Shown here: positions 37,413 through 45,738 of the stretch, piece by piece
Numbering within the stretch: position 1 is the first letter of the stretch
Layout: the number at the start of each line of letters is the position of its first letter
Assembly: GCA_016182785.1 (NCBI GenBank)
Contig: JACPFU010000034.1
Coordinates: 62,001-126,000 of the forward strand
Source of the DNA: Lysobacterales bacterium
GTDB lineage: Bacteria; Pseudomonadota; Gammaproteobacteria; Xanthomonadales; Ahniellaceae
Length of the DNA: 64,000 nt
Direction of reading: 5' to 3'
Made by a program: the position numbers and the translations under genes
Notes under the pieces: model-generated
Told to the model about the DNA's origin: nothing
Database searches by the model: none
The model's input: only the letters and a program-made list of their open reading frames with translations

Positions 37413-38981
37413 TCAAAGAAACGCCCGATACGCCGGGTTGGTGGTTTCTTCGGCGTGGGGATAGCCGAGGTCGGCGAGGTGTTGGGCGAAGGCGCTCGCG
37501 GTGTCGGTCGGAACCTGGATGCCGGCGAGGACGCGGCCGTGGTCGGAGCCGTGGTTGCGGTAGTGGAACAGGCTGATGTTCCAGTCGGTGCCGATGGCGT
37601 CGAGGAACTTGAGCAGGGCGCCGCGGCGTTCCGGGAACTCGAAGCGGAACAGGCGCTCGTCGCTGATCTGCGCGGCCTTGCCGCCGACCATGTAGCGCAC
37701 GTGCAGCTTGGCCATCTCGTTGCGGCTCAGGTCCTCGACCTTGAGCCCGGCGGCACGGATCGCGTGCACGACTTCGGCGCGGTCGTCGCTGCCGGGGTCG
37801 ATGGCGAGGCCCACGAAGATGTGCGCGGCACCGGCATCGCAATAGCGGTAGTTGAACTCGGTGACCGCGCGCGTGCCGATCAGCTGGCAGAAGCGCCGGA
37901 AGCTGCCCTGCTGCTCGGGGATGGTCACCGCCAGCAGCATCTCGCGATCGGCGCCGAGGTCGGCGCGCTCGGCGACGTGGCGCAGGCGATCGAAGTTCAT
38001 GTTGGCGCCGCTGACCACGGCCACGCAGGCGCGCTCGCCGCAGTCGTTGTTCTGCAGCCAGCGCTTGAGCCCGGCCACTGCGAGCGCGCCCGAGGGCTCG
38101 GCGACCACGCGCGTGTCCTCGAAGATGTCCTGGATCGCGGCGCAGATCTCGTCGGTCGAGACCAGCACCACTTCATCGACCAGCGCCTGCGCGACGCGGA
38201 AGGTCTCGTTGCCGACCTGGCGCACCGCGGTGCCGTCGGCGAACACGCCGACGCGCGGCAGCCGCAGCGGGCGTCCGGCGGCGAGTGCATGGTGCAGCGT
38301 CGGTGCGTCTTCGGATTCCACGCCGATGATGCGGATATGCGGATACAGCGCCTTCGCGTACGCAGCGACACCGGCGATCAGGCCGCCGCCGCCGACCGGC
38401 ACCACGATGCAGCCGATCTCCTCGCCATGGTGCTGGCGCAGGATCTCCATCGCGATCGTGCCCTGGCCGGCGATCACCTCGGGGTCGTCGAACGGATGCA
38501 CGAAGCTCAGGCCCTGCGCGCATTCGAGGTCGCGGGCATGGGCATGGGCGGCATCGAAGTCATCGCCGTGCAGCACGATCTCGGCGCCTAGATCGGCGAC
38601 TGCCTGGGTCTTGATGCGCGGAGTCGTGGTCGGCATCACGATCACCGCGCGCAGGCCGAGTCGCCGCGCCGCCAGCGCCACGCCCTGGGCATGGTTGCCG
38701 GCCGAGGCGCAGATCACGCCGCGCGCGCGCGCCTCGGCATCGAGCGACGCGATCTTGTTGAAGGCGCCGCGCAGCTTGAACGAGAACACCGGCTGCTGGT
38801 CCTCGCGCTTGAGCAGCACCAGCGCACCGAGCCGTTTCGACAGGCGCGGCGCGCGCTCCAACGGCGACTCGACGGCAACGTCGTAGACGCGCGCCTTGAG
38901 CACGCGACCGAGGTAGTCGGCGGCCACCGTCGCGGGGGAGGGCGTTTCGGCGCGTGCGACGGTGGCCGCCGGATTGCTCAT
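37413..38981 (-). CDS. ilvA: Threonine ammonia-lyase, biosynthetic
   Basis: A 522-aa PLP enzyme that converts threonine to 2-oxobutanoate, the first committed step to isoleucine. The PLP Lys lies in PVFSFKLRGAFNK (about residue 66), with the phosphate loop GGGGLIAG and SAGNHAQGVALAA. The C-terminal 190 residues hold two ACT-like regulatory modules (EMLLAVTIPEQQGSFRRFCQLIG and RLFRFEFPERRGALLKFLDAIG), so feedback inhibition by isoleucine is expected. The start overlaps the ilvE stop as ATGA. It is the last gene of the ilv cluster and is controlled by the internal attenuator. Confidence 0.96.
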   Translation of the reverse strand: MSNPAATVARAETPSPATVAADYLGRVLKARVYDVAVESPLERAPRLSKRLGALVLLKREDQQPVFSFKLRGAFNKIASLDAEARARGVICASAGNHAQGVALAARRLGLRAVIVMPTTTPRIKTQAVADLGAEIVLHGDDFDAAHAHARDLECAQGLSFVHPFDDPEVIAGQGTIAMEILRQHHGEEIGCIVVPVGGGGLIAGVAAYAKALYPHIRIIGVESEDAPTLHHALAAGRPLRLPRVGVFADGTAVRQVGNETFRVAQALVDEVVLVSTDEICAAIQDIFEDTRVVAEPSGALAVAGLKRWLQNNDCGERACVAVVSGANMNFDRLRHVAERADLGADREMLLAVTIPEQQGSFRRFCQLIGTRAVTEFNYRYCDAGAAHIFVGLAIDPGSDDRAEVVHAIRAAGLKVEDLSRNEMAKLHVRYMVGGKAAQISDERLFRFEFPERRGALLKFLDAIGTDWNISLFHYRNHGSDHGRVLAGIQVPTDTASAFAQHLADLGYPHAEETTNPAYRAFL

Positions 38982-39952
38982 GCCAGCGCCGCCGCGAGGT
39001 CGTGTGCGACCTCGATCTCGCCGCCGCCGACCTGGTCCAGCCAGCCCCATGCGTCGTGGGTGCTGCCGTTGAACAGGCCGAAGAACGCATCCTGCAATTC
39101 GGCGGTGATCGGGCCACGGCCGCCGGCCCCGATCGCGAGCCCGTCGATCGAGCGGATCGGCGTGATCTCGCAGGCGGTGCCGGTGAAGAACGCCTCGTCG
39201 CAGACGTACAGCGCCTCGCGCGGCATCGCCTGCTCGCGCACTTCGTAGCCGAGCTGGCGTGCGAGTTGCAGGATCGAGTCGCGGGTGATGCCGGCCAGGA
39301 TCGCGGCGCTGGTCGGTGGCGTGTACAGCACGCCGCGCTTGACCAGGAACACGTTCTCGCCGCCGCCCTCGGCGAGCATGCCATCGACATTGAGCGCGAT
39401 GCCCTCGTGGTAGCCGTGGCGCGCGGCTTCCATGCTGATCTGCTGGCTGTTGAGGTAATTGCCGCCGGCCTTGGCCGACACCGGCAGGGTGTTCGCGGCC
39501 GGGCGTTGCCACGAGGAAACGCAGGCGTCGACGCCTTTCTCGATCGCTTCGTTGCCGAGGAACGCGGCCATCTCGGTCGCCGCGATCGCGACTTCGACCG
39601 GCGCATTCGGGTCCGGCGCCAGCGAGTAGCCGACCATGCCGCGGTACGCGATCGGGCGCAGGTAGGCGCCGCGCGTCAGGCGGTTGTTGCGCACGATCTG
39701 GCGGCAGGCCTCGTGCAGTTCGGCGAGTCGATAGGGGATGCGCATGCGGTGGATGCGCGCCGACTCGTACAGCCGCTCCAGGTGGTCGCCGAGCCGGAAG
39801 ATCGCCGTGCCCTTCGGCGTGGCATAGGCGCGGATGCCCTCGAACACCGAGGAGCCGTAGTGCAAACCGTGTGCGAGCACGTGCACCTTGGCGTCCTGCC
39901 AGGGCACGAAGTGGCCGTTGTGCCAGATGTATTGGGTGGCTTTGAAGGACAT
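38978..39952 (-). CDS. ilvE: Branched-chain amino acid aminotransferase
   Basis: A 324-aa fold-type IV PLP aminotransferase that catalyses the last step of Val, Leu and Ile synthesis. Landmarks are LHYGSSVFEGIRAY, RMRIPY, the PLP Lys in SAKAGGNYLNSQ, then EGGGENVFLV and GITRDSILQLA. Length is slightly above the E. coli enzyme because of a C-terminal extension. It follows ilvM by 23 nt and overlaps ilvA by 4 nt. Confidence 0.95.
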   Translation of the reverse strand: MSFKATQYIWHNGHFVPWQDAKVHVLAHGLHYGSSVFEGIRAYATPKGTAIFRLGDHLERLYESARIHRMRIPYRLAELHEACRQIVRNNRLTRGAYLRPIAYRGMVGYSLAPDPNAPVEVAIAATEMAAFLGNEAIEKGVDACVSSWQRPAANTLPVSAKAGGNYLNSQQISMEAARHGYHEGIALNVDGMLAEGGGENVFLVKRGVLYTPPTSAAILAGITRDSILQLARQLGYEVREQAMPREALYVCDEAFFTGTACEITPIRSIDGLAIGAGGRGPITAELQDAFFGLFNGSTHDAWGWLDQVGGGEIEVAHDLAAALA

Positions 39953-39975: not shown

Positions 39976-40248
39976 TCAGGCGACGGCCGCGAATTGCGGC
40001 ATGCGGCGCGGCGCGGATTCGGTGTCGAGGAAACCGATGACGTCGTACAGGCGCTCGACCTGGCGCTTGAGAATCTGCACGTCGCGCGACGAGTTCAGTT
40101 GCATCAGCACGATCCAGGTGTCGGCGTCGCGCGGTTGCGTGGTCAGCCCGGCGATCTCGAAGCCGCGCCGCTGCACGGTGCCGAGCAGGCGCAGCAGGGC
40201 GCCTTCGCTGCGCGAGAGGACCAGTCCCAGGGCATGGTTGTCGTTCAT
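39976..40248 (-). CDS. ilvM: Acetolactate synthase small subunit, IlvM-like ACT protein
   Basis: A 90-aa single ACT-domain protein: ALGLVLSRSEGALLRLLGTVQRRGFEIAGLTTQP, then DTWIVLMQLNSSRDVQILKRQVERLYDVIGF. This is the length and pattern of the IlvM regulatory subunit, which activates the IlvG large subunit and tunes its valine sensitivity. The start at 40248 follows AGGAGA; an earlier in-frame ATG at 40266 has none. It is separated from its catalytic partner gene by a 331-nt leader-attenuator region, so subunit ratio may be regulated. Confidence 0.88.
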   Translation of the reverse strand: MNDNHALGLVLSRSEGALLRLLGTVQRRGFEIAGLTTQPRDADTWIVLMQLNSSRDVQILKRQVERLYDVIGFLDTESAPRRMPQFAAVA

Positions 40249-40283: not shown

Positions 40284-40321
40284 CAAAACGCGAAACCCCC
40301 GCTGCCTTTCGGAGCGGGGGT
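40284..40321 (-). terminator. Attenuator terminator upstream of ilvM
   Basis: On the minus strand, ACCCCCGCT-N9-AGCGGGGGT is a perfect 9-bp stem (40295-40303 with 40313-40321), followed by a TTTCGCGTTTT tail. Its 5' arm includes CCCGCTCCG (40310-40318), fully complementary to CGGAGCGGG inside the leader ORF (40373-40381). This allows a competing antiterminator. Confidence 0.85.
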
Positions 40322-40355
40322 CTTGGTGTGGGTCCTGATTCTTGGTGTTATCGCA

Positions 40356-40511
40356 TCAGGTCACGCACGCATCCCGCTCCGGTGAGGGCGTAATGAGTAC
40401 GAGTACGAGTACGAGCGCAACGAGCCGGCGCGCCGACGCGATGCAGGCACGCGCCAGCGAAGCCGGGGCGGTGTGCGTGCGAGTCGCGTGGATGGCGGAA
40501 CGATTGATCAT
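40356..40511 (-). CDS. Internal ilv leader peptide (attenuation control, ilvM-ilvE-ilvA)
   Basis: A 51-codon ORF with control run LVALVLVLVLI (residues 30-40) followed by [11 protein letters not shown] and stop. Scarcity of charged Leu, Val or Ile tRNA should stall the ribosome there and leave CGGAGCGGG free to pair with the terminator arm. Plentiful supply lets the ribosome cover that segment and termination follows. The start codon is 7 nt after a -10 box, so the mRNA is probably leaderless. The C-terminal [10 protein letters not shown] tail is shared with the ilvD leader, showing duplication of the cassette. (GAGTAC)3 repeats at 40395-40412 encode the Leu-Val pairs. Confidence 0.85.
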   Translation of the reverse strand: MINRSAIHATRTHTAPASLARACIASARRLVALVLVLVLITPSPERDACVT

Positions 40512-40518
40512 GGGCTCG

Positions 40519-40548
40519 AAGCTAATGGTGGTCTCTGGGAGGTGTCAA
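40519..40548 (-). promoter_or_regulatory. Internal promoter for ilvM-ilvE-ilvA
   Basis: On the minus strand, TTGACA (40543-40548), 18 nt, TAGCTT (40519-40524), then 7 nt to the leader ATG at 40511. A perfect -35 box and the same geometry as the ilvD promoter support it. It lies between the ilvG stop and the leader, so the cluster's last three genes have their own start. Confidence 0.8.
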
Positions 40549-40579
40549 GCGCTTTTCGCGCGGCGTTGATGACGGTTTG

Positions 40580-42277
40580 TCATGGTGCGGGGGCGGCGGT
40601 GGCCGGTTCCTGCAGCATCATCTGCGCATTCGACTTGCCCGGCGGCACCAGCGGCCAGACGTTCGCCCGGGCGTCGATCTTCACGTGCAGCAGGAACGCG
40701 CCGGGGGCCGCGAGCAACGTGCGCAGCGCCGGCTCGACCTCGTCGCGACGCGTGATCGTCGCCGCCGGGATGCGGAACGCGCGCGCCAGTTCGGCGAAGT
40801 CGGGGTTGTCGGACAGGTCGACTTCGCTGTGGCGCTGGTCGAAGAACAGCGTTTGCCACTGCCGCACCATGCCGAGCCCGGAATTGTCGAGCAGCACGAT
40901 CTTGATCGGGATGCCGTAGCGATGCAGCGTCGCCAGCTCCTGGATGTTCATCATGATCGAGCCATCGCCGCTGACGCAGACCACGGTCGCCTGCGGGTGT
41001 GCGAGCTGGGCGCCGATCGCCGCCGGCAGGCCGAAGCCCATGGTGCCGAGTCCGGCGCTCGACAGGTGATGGCTGATGCGGGCGAAGCGGCAGTGTTGCG
41101 CCACCCACATCTGGTGCTGGCCGACATCGCAACTGACGACCATGTCCGGGCCGCCGAGTTCGCTGAGCTGCTTCAGCAGCAGTGGCGCGTAGATGTCCTC
41201 GCCCGGTGCGTCGTAGCGCCAGCCGTGGCGCACGCGCAGCGCCTGGCATTGCGCACGCCATGGGTCGATGCGCAGCGGCATCGCAATCGCGTCCAGGCTG
41301 CGCGCCAGGTCACCGTGCAGCGCGACATCGGCGCGGCGCAGCTTGCCGATCTCGGCGGCATCGGCGTCGAGATGGATCACCTGCGCGTTCGGCGCGAAGG
41401 TGTCGAGCTTGCCGGTGGCGCGATCGTCGAGGCGCGCCCCGACCACGATCAGCAGGTCGGCCTGGTCGATCGCGAGGTTCGCCGCCGGGTTGCCGTGCAT
41501 GCCGAGCATGCCGAGGTACAGCGGATCGGTTGCGTCGATGCCGCCGAGGCCCTTCAGCGTGCACACGGCCGGCGCGCGCGTGACCTGGTGGAACCGCTGC
41601 AGCGCCGCTTCGGCGTGGGCGATGCCGACGCCACCGCCGGCGTAGATCACCGGTCGCTGCGCGGCAGCGAGCAGCGCGCGCGCCTGGGCGATGTCCTTGC
41701 CATGCGCGGCGGTCGGGTGCTGCTCGATGCGCGTGCTCGGACGGGCGCTGGCCCTGGCCACGGTGATGTCCTTGGGCAGGTCGATCAGCACCGGGCCGGG
41801 CCGGCCTTCGGCGGCGATCGCAAACGCCTCGCGCACGGTCGCGGCGATGTCCTCGGTGCGGCGCACGATGAAGCTGTGCTTGACCACCGGCAGCGACATG
41901 CCGAACACGTCGACTTCCTGGAATGCATCGGTGCCCATCAGGTGCGTCGGCACCTGGCCGGTGATCGCGACGATCGGCACCGAGTCCAGGTACGCGTCGG
42001 CGATGCCGGTCAGCAGGTTGGTCGCACCGGGACCACTGGTCGCCATGCACACGCCGACGCGGCCGCTGGCGCGCGCATAGCCGACCGCGGCCAGCGCCGC
42101 ACCCTGTTCATGGCGGACCAGGATATGCCGCAGCTTCGAGCCGACGAGCGCATCGTAGACCGGCATGATGGCGCCGCCCGGATAACCGAATACGGTGTCC
42201 ACGCCCTCGGCTTCGAGGGCGTGGATCAGCCATTGCGCTCCGGTCTTCATCGCATCGTGGTCGTCGCGGCGGGTCAT
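40580..42277 (-). CDS. ilvG: Acetolactate synthase large subunit
   Basis: A 565-aa ThDP/FAD enzyme forming acetolactate or acetohydroxybutyrate from pyruvate and 2-oxobutanoate. The N-terminus [32 protein letters not shown] carries the catalytic Glu region ([14 protein letters not shown]). [29 protein letters not shown] follows, and the ThDP/Mg motif is [15 protein letters not shown]. It is named ilvG because its partner is an IlvM-like small subunit. An ATG nine codons in (42250) is an alternative start. Its stop is followed by the internal promoter and attenuator. Confidence 0.95.
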
Positions 42278-42286
42278 GGTCTGCGC

Positions 42287-43324
42287 TCAGGCGGTGGCGG
42301 GTTCTTTTGCCGGCGCGGCCGCCGGTGCGGGCGCCGCGTGCGCGGCACGCTTGCCCGGATCGAGCCACGGCATGCGCGCGCGCAGGCGGGCGCCGACGGT
42401 TTCGATCGGGTGGTCGAGGTCGGCCTGCTTCAGCGCCTTGTAGTTGGCGTTGCCGCTGCGGTACTCGGCGACCCATTCGCGCGCGAAGCGGCCGTCCTGG
42501 ATCTCGTGCAGGATGTCGCGCATGTGCTGGCGCGTGCTCGAGTCGACGATGCGCGGGCCGCGCGTGAGGTCGCCGTATTGCGCGGTCTCGCTGATGTAGC
42601 GGTGCATCTTGGCCATGCCGCCCTCGTGCAGCAGGTCGACGATCAGCTTCAGCTCATGCATGCACTCGAAGTAGGCGACCTCCGGCTGATAGCCGGCCTC
42701 GACCAGGGTCTCGAAACCCTGCACCACCAACTCGGTGACGCCGCCGCAGAGCACGGCTTGTTCGCCGAACAGATCGGTCTCGGTTTCCTCGGCGAAGCTC
42801 GTCGTGATCAGGCCGCCGCGGGCGCCGCCGATGCCGTGCGCATAGGCCTGCGCGCGCGTCAGCGCCTGTCCCGACACGTCCTTGTGCACCGCGACCAGGC
42901 ACGGCACCCCGTGCCCGGTCTCGTATTCGCGCCGCACCAGCGCGCCCGGGCCCTTGGGTGCGACCAGGATGATGTCCCACTTGTCGTCGGTCTGGATCTG
43001 CTTGAAATGGATGTTGAACCCATGCGCGAACAGCAGCGCGCCGCCGGGCTTGAAGTTCGGCGCGATCGACTCCTCGAACACCTTCGGCTGCTGCATGTCC
43101 GGCGTCAGCAGCGCGATCAGCTCGGCCTTGGCCGCGGCTTCGCCGGGCTCGAACACCTGCAGGCCATCGGCCTGGGCCTGGTGCCAGCTCGGGCCGTTGC
43201 GGCGCGCGCCGACGATGACCTTGAAGCCGGAATCGCGCAGGTTCAGCGCATGCGCGCGACCCTGGCTGCCGTAACCGATGACGGCGATGGTCTGTTCCTT
43301 GAGTGGGGCGGTGATCGGGCTCAT
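42287..43324 (-). CDS. ilvC: Ketol-acid reductoisomerase, class I
   Basis: A 345-aa NADPH-dependent isomeroreductase, second common step of Val and Ile synthesis. The nucleotide loop [25 protein letters not shown] is at 17-41, with Arg/Ser residues marking NADPH preference. The Mg-binding knotted domain includes [17 protein letters not shown] and [16 protein letters not shown]. Residues after about 325 form an Ala/Pro tail ([19 protein letters not shown]) not needed for the class I core. It lies 9 nt before ilvG. Confidence 0.96.
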
Positions 43325-43414: not shown

Positions 43415-45058
43415 CTAGGGACTGGTGATCGCCCCCTTCGATGCCGATCCGACCATGCGCGCGTACTTCGCGAGCACGCCGCGGGTCGCGCGTGGCGGCA
43501 GCGGTTCGGGGCGACGCGCGGACAGATCGGCGAGGCAGTCGAGACGGCGCGCGTCGACGTCGATGACGATGGTGTCGCCATCGGCAATCGCCGCGATCGG
43601 CCCGCCGCGTGCCGCTTCCGGCGCGACATGGCCGACCATCAGGCCGTGCGTGGCGCCGCTGAAGCGGCCGTCGGTGATCAGCGCGACCTCGGCGCCGAGG
43701 CCGCGGCCCATCAGCGCCGCGGTGACCGCCAGCATCTCGGGCATGCCTGGCGCACCGGCGGGACCTTCGTGGCGGATCACCACGACATCACCAGCGCGGA
43801 TTGCGCCCGCCTGCACCGCCGCGAACGCCGCCGGCTCGCCGTCGAAGACGCGTGCCGGTCCCTCGAAGCGCATGCGGCCGTGGCCGGCGAGCTTCACCAC
43901 GCAACCTTCCGGGGCCAGCGAGCCGTGCAGGATCGCGAAGCCGCCGCGCGGCTTCAGCGGCTGGCTCAGCGGATACACCACCGGTTCCGGCTGTGCGCCG
44001 AGTTCGATGTCGGCGAGCAAGGCCAGCATCGAGTCGCCCTCGATGGTCGGGTGGTCCTCGATCACGCCACCCTGCATCAGCATCTGCGCGACGCGCGTGG
44101 TGCCTCCGGCCGCGGTCAGTTCGATCGCGGTGTAGCGGCCACCGGGTTTCAGGTCGGCGATCACCGGAGTGACCGCGGCGATCGCGTCGAAGTCGTCGAT
44201 CGCGAGCGGCACCTCGGCCTCGTGCGCGATCGCGAGCAGGTGCAGCACGGCGTTGGTCGAGCCGGCGGTCGCGGCGACCATGCGTGCGGCATTGCGAAAC
44301 GCGGCCGGCGTCAGCGCCTGGCGCGGATGGAAGCCGCGACGCAGGCATTCCATCACCAGGCGGCCGCAGTCCTCACCGGCGCGGGCGCGATCGACATGGA
44401 TCGCCGGCAAGTCATTCGCGCCGAGCGGCGACAGCCCGAGCATGGTCATCACCATCGCCATCGTGTTCGCGGTGAACTGGCCGCCGCAGGCGCCGGCACC
44501 GGGGCAGGCATCCTTCTCGACCGCGAGCAGTTCGGCGTCGTCGATGCGCCCGGCCGAATGTGCGCCGACCGCCTCGAACACTTCCTGGATGGTGATGTGC
44601 TGGCCGTGGTGCACGCCATGCGCGATCGAGCCGCCGTACAGCACCACCGTCGGGATGTTCATGCGTGCTGCGGCCATCGCCGCCGCCGGAATGGTCTTGT
44701 CGCAGCCGCACAGGATCACCATCGCATCGAGGCTGTGACCGTTGACGGCGAGTTCGATCGAGTCGGCGATCCAGTCGCGCGACACCAGCGAGGCGCGCAT
44801 GCCGGCGGTGCCCATCGCGATGCCGTCGGTGACGACGATGGTGTTGAACTCGATCGCGGTGCCGCCATTCGCCTCGATGCCGCGGCGCACGTGCTGGGCA
44901 GCAGCGCGCAGGGTGAAGTTGCACGGCGACACGTCCGACCAGGAATGCACGACGGCGACGAAGGGCTTGGCGATGGCCGCATCGTCGCGCCCGGTGGCGC
45001 GCAACATGGCGCGGGCGGGGGCGTGGTCGGGTCCGTGCTTGATGGCATTGCTACGCAT
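43415..45058 (-). CDS. ilvD: Dihydroxy-acid dehydratase
   Basis: A 547-aa iron-sulfur dehydratase, third common step of branched-chain synthesis. Cluster-binding cysteines are in [14 protein letters not shown] (about 113-121) and [16 protein letters not shown] (about 184-199). The C-terminal barrel shows [14 protein letters not shown] and [11 protein letters not shown] with the catalytic Ser. This is the shorter form of the family (E. coli IlvD is 616 aa). It is the first gene of the ilv cluster, 100 nt downstream of the first leader peptide. Confidence 0.96.
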
Positions 45059-45091
45059 TCGGTCTGTCTCGGTTCGGGAATTCGGGACCCC

Positions 45092-45133
45092 GAAAACACG
45101 AAACCCCCGCGTCCTTTCGGAGCGGGGGTTTCG
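45092..45133 (-). terminator. Attenuator terminator upstream of ilvD
   Basis: On the minus strand, CGAAACCCCCGC-N11-GCGGGGGTTTCG is a perfect 12-bp stem (45099-45110 with 45122-45133), with TGTTTTC just after. CCCGCTCCG within it (45118-45126) is complementary to CGGAGCGGG in the leader ORF (45176-45184), which allows an exclusive antiterminator. Confidence 0.88.
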
Positions 45134-45158
45134 GTGGAGTCCTGATTCTTGGTCTAGG

Positions 45159-45305
45159 TCAGGTCAAGCACGCATCCCGCTCCGGTGAGGGCGTAATGAG
45201 TACTACGAGGGCAAGCTTGGCAATCGACCCGTGCATCGGCCAGCGCAGCGCGATCGGCAGCGAGCCGATGGTGCATGCAATCTGGTGGGCGGCGTGGTTG
45301 ATCAT
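45159..45305 (-). CDS. ilvD leader peptide (attenuation control)
   Basis: A 48-codon ORF with control run LALVVLI (residues 31-37), then [11 protein letters not shown] and stop 25 nt before the terminator stem. Further isleucines and leucines lie upstream ([12 protein letters not shown]). The start is 7 nt after the -10 box, so no 5' untranslated region is expected. The design matches the internal leader at 40356-40511: same start context MIN, same C-terminal tail, same antiterminator pairing. It should make ilvDCG expression rise when charged branched-chain tRNAs are scarce. Confidence 0.85.
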
Positions 45306-45312
45306 GGCCCCG

Positions 45313-45342
45313 ACGCTAAGGGCGAAGTTCTGGGCTTGTCAA
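45313..45342 (-). promoter_or_regulatory. ilvDCG promoter
   Basis: On the minus strand, TTGACA (45337-45342), 18 nt, TAGCGT (45313-45318), then 7 nt to the leader ATG. The 134-nt stretch to the divergent leuA promoter holds a 14-bp palindrome ATGGCA-CA-TGCCAT (45444-45457), a possible site for a shared regulator. Confidence 0.82.
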
Positions 45343-45476: not shown

Positions 45477-45506
45477 TTGACAGCTCGCGAGAGCGCATGC
45501 GAGCTT
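45477..45506 (+). promoter_or_regulatory. leuACDB promoter
   Basis: TTGACA (45477-45482), 18 nt, GAGCTT (45501-45506), then 6 nt to the leader ATG at 45513. The -35 is perfect. The -10 is poor by consensus but aligns with TAGCTT and TAGCGT of the two ilv promoters. Confidence 0.72.
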
Positions 45507-45512
45507 CGGCCC

Positions 45513-45638
45513 ATGTTCACCGCACTGCACCATGCTCGGAAACCGACGCGCTGCCCGGCGCGAGTGGTGCTGCGCGTGGTACTTCCCGGCCTGCTTCTTA
45601 TTCCGCCGACAGCGCGGGTAGGTGCAGCGTCGAGCTAG
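45513..45638 (+). CDS. leuL: leuA leader peptide (attenuation control)
   Basis: A 41-codon ORF whose middle is the control run RVVLRVVLPGLLLI (about residues 17-30), rich in Leu and Val. The tail PPTARVGAASS ends 27 nt before the terminator. GCGCGGG (45612-45618) in the tail codons can pair with CCCGCGC (45669-45675) in the terminator arm. Stalling at the Leu codons would therefore leave it free to prevent termination. The start lies 6 nt after the -10 box, implying a leaderless mRNA. The peptide is unrelated in sequence to the ilv leaders beyond this logic. Confidence 0.82.
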   Translation: MFTALHHARKPTRCPARVVLRVVLPGLLLIPPTARVGAASS

Positions 45639-45665
45639 AACAACAGCCACGATACGAATCACCAG

Positions 45666-45699
45666 AACCCCGCGCCGGCAACGACGCGGGGTTTTTTTT
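45666..45699 (+). terminator. Attenuator terminator upstream of leuA
   Basis: AACCCCGCG-N10-CGCGGGGTT is a perfect 9-bp stem (45666-45674 with 45685-45693) followed by eight T residues (45692-45699). It is the clearest intrinsic terminator in the window, yet it stands 135 nt upstream of leuA, as expected for attenuation. Confidence 0.92.
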
Positions 45700-45738
45700 C
45701 GCCCTGACCCACGCACCACAGCACCCGAGGACACCGCC

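Follow-up and report, generated by a model that had tools for sequence, protein, structure and literature searches.

Within the window (the whole stretch of 64 000 nucleotides analysed here), the ilv operon carries a second leader cassette between ilvG and ilvM, called cassette 2 below. Very probably, judging from its sequence and that of its relatives, cassette 2 is a functional leaderless attenuator of the ribosome-mediated transcription type, which arose in this genus when an ilv leader found across the order was duplicated into the junction between ilvG and ilvM. The genes of the operon and the leader unit that precedes ilvD were located as follows.

45337-45342, minus strand: −35 element TTGACA of the ilvD unit
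45159-45305, minus strand: leader of the ilvD unit, 48 codons, ATG at 45305
45090-45136, minus strand: terminator of the ilvD unit
43415-45058, minus strand: ilvD
42287-43324, minus strand: ilvC
40580-42277, minus strand: ilvG, acetolactate synthase catalytic subunit
39976-40248, minus strand: ilvM (ATG at 40248), acetolactate synthase regulatory subunit; it has a GGAG ribosome site of its own
38978-39952, minus strand: ilvE
37413-38981, minus strand: ilvA, a 522-aa frame

Cassette 2 lies on the minus strand and comprises a promoter (TTGACA), a leader of 51 codons (Leu/Val/Ile) and a terminator. A first-pass annotation of this DNA had described these three parts between ilvG and ilvM, and its coordinates and letters were right. 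The elements are listed below.

40543-40548, minus strand: −35 element TTGACA of promoter 2, identical in congener G001
40519-40525, minus strand: −10 element of promoter 2, where TTAGCTTCG is the same in G001 despite a drifted spacer
40356-40511, minus strand: leader ORF 2, 51 codons, ATG predicted to lie no more than 1 nt from the transcription start, without a Shine-Dalgarno-like motif
40392-40421, minus strand: control codons V-A-L-V-L-V-L-V-L-I, including the rare GTA and ATT
40365-40400, minus strand: pause hairpin of segments 1:2, GUACUCAUUACGCCC...GCGUGC, about −17 kcal/mol
40373-40381, minus strand: segment 2, CGGAGCGGG, 5′ arm of the antiterminator
40310-40318, minus strand: segment 3, CCCGCTCCG
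40285-40321, minus strand: terminator hairpin (segments 3:4), with an interrupted U tract, UUUCGCGUUUU

The −10 element can be read as TTAGCT (17-nt spacer) or as TAGCTT (18-nt spacer), and TCGAGCCC stands between TTAGCT and the leader ATG at 40511. The nine-base complementarity of segments 2 and 3, which had been noticed before, was confirmed (40381-40373 with 40318-40310). No Rfam family matched cassette 2. A mechanical scanner called no sigma-70 consensus at promoter 1 or promoter 2, because the −10 elements of both are poor; the assignment of these putative promoters is supported by comparison between genomes.

The ilvD unit and cassette 2 have an identical anatomy of promoter, leader and terminator. 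They were aligned over ~277 nt at 74% identity (E=3e-33), which bears out the homology proposed for them. A 45-nt block of cassette 2 (40356-40400) shares 98% identity with 45159-45203 in the ilvD unit. One base of the 45 differs, and each copy is less close to its own orthologue there; local gene conversion within the source genome is a possible origin of this near-identity. Genome-wide (3.8 Mb), just these two copies were found, the next-best match having E=9e-4. They are separated by 4.8 kb with three genes, and each has a separate promoter; the control run is longer in cassette 2 than in the ilvD unit. Both leaders had been said to start with MIN and to share a peptide tail. Both statements hold in the source genome; as conserved signatures they fail, congeners having MMN, MTN or MTT at the start and the tail not being conserved as a peptide. 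On sequence evidence, the conserved part of cassette 2 is the control run together with the antiterminator RNA, not the peptide.

The ilvG-ilvM gap was compared in related genomes, a check that the first-pass annotation had proposed. Congener G001 has the same cassette at the same junction, in a gap of 440 nt. It is on one contig with ilvC, ilvG, ilvM and ilvE, and therefore is not an assembly artefact. A REP-like inverted repeat (GAGCCTGTCGAAG...CTTCGACAGGCTC) stands between the ilvG stop and the cassette in G001 (L149, G001:C153) and is absent from the source genome. Junctions were read in three other family members and in the order members where both genes were readable; among these, the gaps of the source genome (331 nt) and G001 (440 nt) were the sole exceptions, the two genes otherwise overlapping or lying at most about 41 nt apart. 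In G007 and G009, the ilvG stop overlaps the ilvM start. Where ilvG and ilvM are present, the family pattern is ilvD-C-G-M-E-A with a single leader before ilvD. Close packing of the junction in relatives and this one-leader pattern indicate that cassette 2 is a derived trait, a duplication particular to this genus that breaks the ilvG-ilvM junction. It is known from two species, the contig of a third congener stopping inside ilvG. No second copy within one ilv operon was found in the other order genomes searched, in agreement with the earlier remark that such a duplicated attenuator is unusual. In 27 order genomes the covariance model described below matched a second time; these second matches were considered as in-operon duplicates and rejected, as none lay near the first match.

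The two copies of cassette 2 were then compared position by position. In the alignment of the source genome with G001, the −35 element, the TTAGCTTCG block and the CCC before the ATG are identical at 18/18 bases, whereas the remaining 19 promoter positions (spacer) match at 6/19 only. The leaders differ by indels in multiples of three, and the control run and segments 2, 3 and 4 are kept. These data bear on the idea that cassette 2 is a decaying, non-functional duplicate. Its presence in one genus only and the divergence of much of the leader would fit decay, but this is very improbable for a cassette that has retained every promoter element base beside a near-random spacer, has kept its terminator and antiterminator, and has a control run exceeding that of the ilvD unit.

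The geometry of the switch was examined in the five leaders of the genus. With ATT, the last control codon, in the A site, the ribosome edge is 1 nt before segment 2 in 5/5 leaders and the 2:3 pairing is complete (7-9 bp). This pairing falls to 4 bp or fewer two codons past ATT and to none after three. At ATT, as at every control codon before it, the ribosome leaves the whole antiterminator segment exposed. In equilibrium folding the terminator won in every ribosome state, and therefore the switch has to act kinetically, like known attenuators. In an untranslated leader 2, before segment 4 emerges, pairing of 2:3 is favoured over 1:2 alone by 2-6 kcal/mol, but 1:2 forms first. The control run uses GTA, which is 1/254 Val codons in the neighbouring genes, and ATT, which is 5/180 Ile codons there; CTC, the third control codon type, is not rare (28% of Leu codons in the same genes). 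Cassette 2 combines a run of end-product codons (VALVLVLVLI), mutually exclusive 2:3 and 3:4 pairings with one arm in common, a stall position that leaves segment 2 free, a ribosome position at the stop codon that covers it, and an intrinsic terminator with an interrupted U tract.

The following course of events is proposed. RNA from promoter 2 would begin at or beside the leader AUG. Under a shortage of charged tRNA for Leu, Val or Ile, the ribosome would stall on the GTA/CTC/ATT run. Segment 2 would then be free to pair with segment 3, the terminator would be prevented and ilvM-ilvE-ilvA would be transcribed. With an ample supply of these amino acids, the ribosome would proceed and cover segment 2, so that the terminator would form and transcription would stop before ilvM. 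The ilvM-E-A genes would have their own gate on top of the ilvD gate, and the second half of the operon is probably gated by cassette 2 itself. Alternatively, cassette 2 could be mainly a terminator of the ilvDCG transcript combined with an internal promoter that drives ilvMEA constitutively, and leader 2 would be a relic of the duplication. Such a role would suit the strength of the terminator hairpin (−24 to −29 kcal/mol) and a leader which, having no Shine-Dalgarno sequence, would hardly be translated in promoter-1 transcripts. However, the control run, the rare codons, an antiterminator of 8-9 bp and the in-frame spacing of indels are kept in both species; a relic would lose such features, just as identity has fallen to 62% elsewhere in the leader. 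This alternative is considered unlikely.

Under the attenuator reading, the division of the pathway into two units has to be qualified. The first-pass annotation had proposed ilvDCG and ilvMEA as separately attenuated units. Full separation is plausible but unproven, since no terminator was found between ilvG and promoter 2, and ilvD-promoter transcripts would enter cassette 2 and may to some extent pass gate 2. In these transcripts leader 2 is internal and without a Shine-Dalgarno sequence, and their termination would depend on its default fold. With leader 2 leaderless, gate 2 could be start-selective: leader 2 would be translated only on RNA begun at promoter 2 and would stay unread in ilvD-C-G transcripts, terminator 2 would discriminate between the two, and two independently tuned units would set the IlvG:IlvM ratio. 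This refinement is offered tentatively and may well be wrong.

A covariance model (R1) was seeded with the five genus copies, including cassette 2. It matched 10/10 genomes of the family (one at E=0.87 only) and 252/399 genomes of the order; outside the order, at a stricter cut-off, it matched 5 of about 365. Cassette 2 itself gave a full-length match of 131.6 bits, a score that proves nothing alone since cassette 2 is in the seed; in the loci searched, R1 matched a further 56 places that are not in the seed. The match was directly before ilvD, ilvC or leuA in 48 of the 54 relative loci tested. Extra matches in g18 (L181, L189, L206) were discarded as false positives, being GC-rich terminators after an unrelated gene. 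In an alignment of 61 members, both sides had changed in 26/36 pairs (20.1 expected by shuffling), with a covariation score of 0.351 vs 0.124; this alignment was fitted to R1 and is hence biased towards the pairs of the model. Covariation of the terminator with the antiterminator is also seen independently of R1 (GGAGC/GCTCC, GGTGC/GCACC, GGCGC/GCGCC). The terminator finder parsed 32/55 leaders, and in all 32 the antiterminator arm begins 9-16 nt past the last control codon. By these matches, the leader of cassette 2 is a member of an order-wide family that precedes ilvD, ilvC or leuA. Its earlier description as a second complete promoter-leader-attenuator cassette is upheld by the copy at the same place in G001, the kept promoter elements, the ribosome geometry and the order-wide covariation. 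A role in trans for the terminated leader RNA or for leader peptide 2, with attenuation secondary, has a precedent in leaderless attenuator RNAs such as Sinorhizobium meliloti rnTrpL/peTrpL (PMC7298713). It is an extremely improbable main function here: the peptide is poorly conserved beyond the control run, and what is conserved is the RNA pairing.

The position of the leader ATG was examined at 55 loci. In 49/55 loci, and in 0/275 control regions, TTGACA precedes the leader ATG by 36-37 nt (TTGACA-N30/31-ATG); exactly one TTGACA occurs within 320 nt upstream of the structure in 52/55. A C directly precedes the ATG in 51/55 loci, and in 30/55 a TANNNT ends 6-7 nt upstream of the ATG. No SD-like motif was found before the leader ATG in the 55 loci. 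Thermomonas beijingensis has the same TTGACA-to-ATG geometry. With a normal spacer of 17-18 nt, transcription would therefore start on or beside the A of the ATG, and the leaders of the family are probably leaderless, with the ATG at +1. Cassette 2 has the sequence features expected of a leaderless mRNA, lacking a Shine-Dalgarno sequence and having a spacing that puts +1 on or beside the ATG. This geometry was absent from the first-pass annotation, as were the broken ilvG-ilvM junction, the order-wide family and the leuA attenuator described next.

By sequence, a third family member in the window precedes leuA. Its unit (45477-45701, plus strand) is divergent from the ilvD unit, and its terminator carries a run of T.

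45477-45482, plus strand: −35 element TTGACA of the divergent leuA unit, with the ATG 36 nt after its first base
45513-45638, plus strand: leuA leader, predicted leaderless, 41 codons (MFTALHHARKPTRCPARVVLRVVLPGLLLIPPTARVGAASS, containing VVLRVVLPGLLLI)
45582-45701, plus strand: leuA attenuator, which matches the ilv model over its full length but weakly (window E=2.8e-4)
40569-40583, no strand assigned: perfect dyad ATGAC-N5-GTCAT, overlapping the ilvG stop codon and 20 nt upstream of the promoter 2 −35 element; candidate operator

The dyad occurs once in the source genome (at cassette 2) and once in G002 (at the leuA promoter), chance giving ~1 per genome. Two congeners have it upstream of leuA (L209, L210). 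It starts 26 nt before the −35 element of leuA and 35-36 nt before that of the ilvM cassette (with one mismatch in G001), distances that differ by about one helical turn. G001 has two more such sites, inside coding genes, as chance sites would be. The dyad is a possible operator and is given as a lead only. In another family of the order, TCTGGACGTCCAGA-like palindromes were seen ~60 nt upstream of the −35 element of the leuA leader (L177, L183, L185) and are possibly a regulator site.

In enterobacteria, the ilvGMEDA operon (leader ilvL) has Leu/Val/Ile leader codons, alternative hairpins and a terminator before the ilv genes, all of which it has in common with cassette 2. ilvGMEDA has one attenuator ahead of the operon and abutting ilvG and ilvM, whereas the source genome has a second attenuator inside the operon. 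ilvL has a 5′ untranslated region; its peptide is present in L033-L035, and TTGACA 36-37 nt before the ATG is absent from these three loci. Vitreschak et al. 2004 (FEMS Microbiol Lett 234:357) reportedly predicted proteobacterial attenuators, likely including some ilv/leu leaders of this order. Among the open papers searched, none was found on the ilv leader of this order or on an in-operon duplicate; an earlier description of the single leader is possible. Open papers document leaderless attenuators for Actinobacteria and for S. meliloti trpL. The ilvBNC attenuator of Corynebacterium glutamicum has a leader peptide on a leaderless mRNA before a branched-chain operon (PMC11857589), and leaderless leader peptides are known in Streptomyces lividans (PMC8079986). 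These actinobacterial leaders occur once per operon; their likeness to cassette 2 is one of leaderless architecture. The S. meliloti trpL attenuator is proteobacterial and its RNA 5′ end is the leader ATG (PMC7298713), but it responds to Trp and is a single copy before trpE(G). Tandem attenuators in one operon are known from Salmonella mgtCBR (PMC3641672). There, both are in one leader before the first gene, on one transcript, and sense different signals (ATP, proline); in the source genome, two branched-chain cassettes that are homologous to each other have a promoter each and are separated by genes. The latter do not belong to the mgtCBR type of tandem attenuators in one leader, given the 4.8 kb and three genes that separate them.

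An order-wide family whose leader ATG coincides with the predicted start suggests that leaderless attenuation may be the rule for branched-chain amino acid genes across this gammaproteobacterial order, including Thermomonas. In this genus, the attenuator would have moved as a whole cassette into the operon, and the regulatory subunit of acetolactate synthase would thereby have gained an amino acid sensor for itself.
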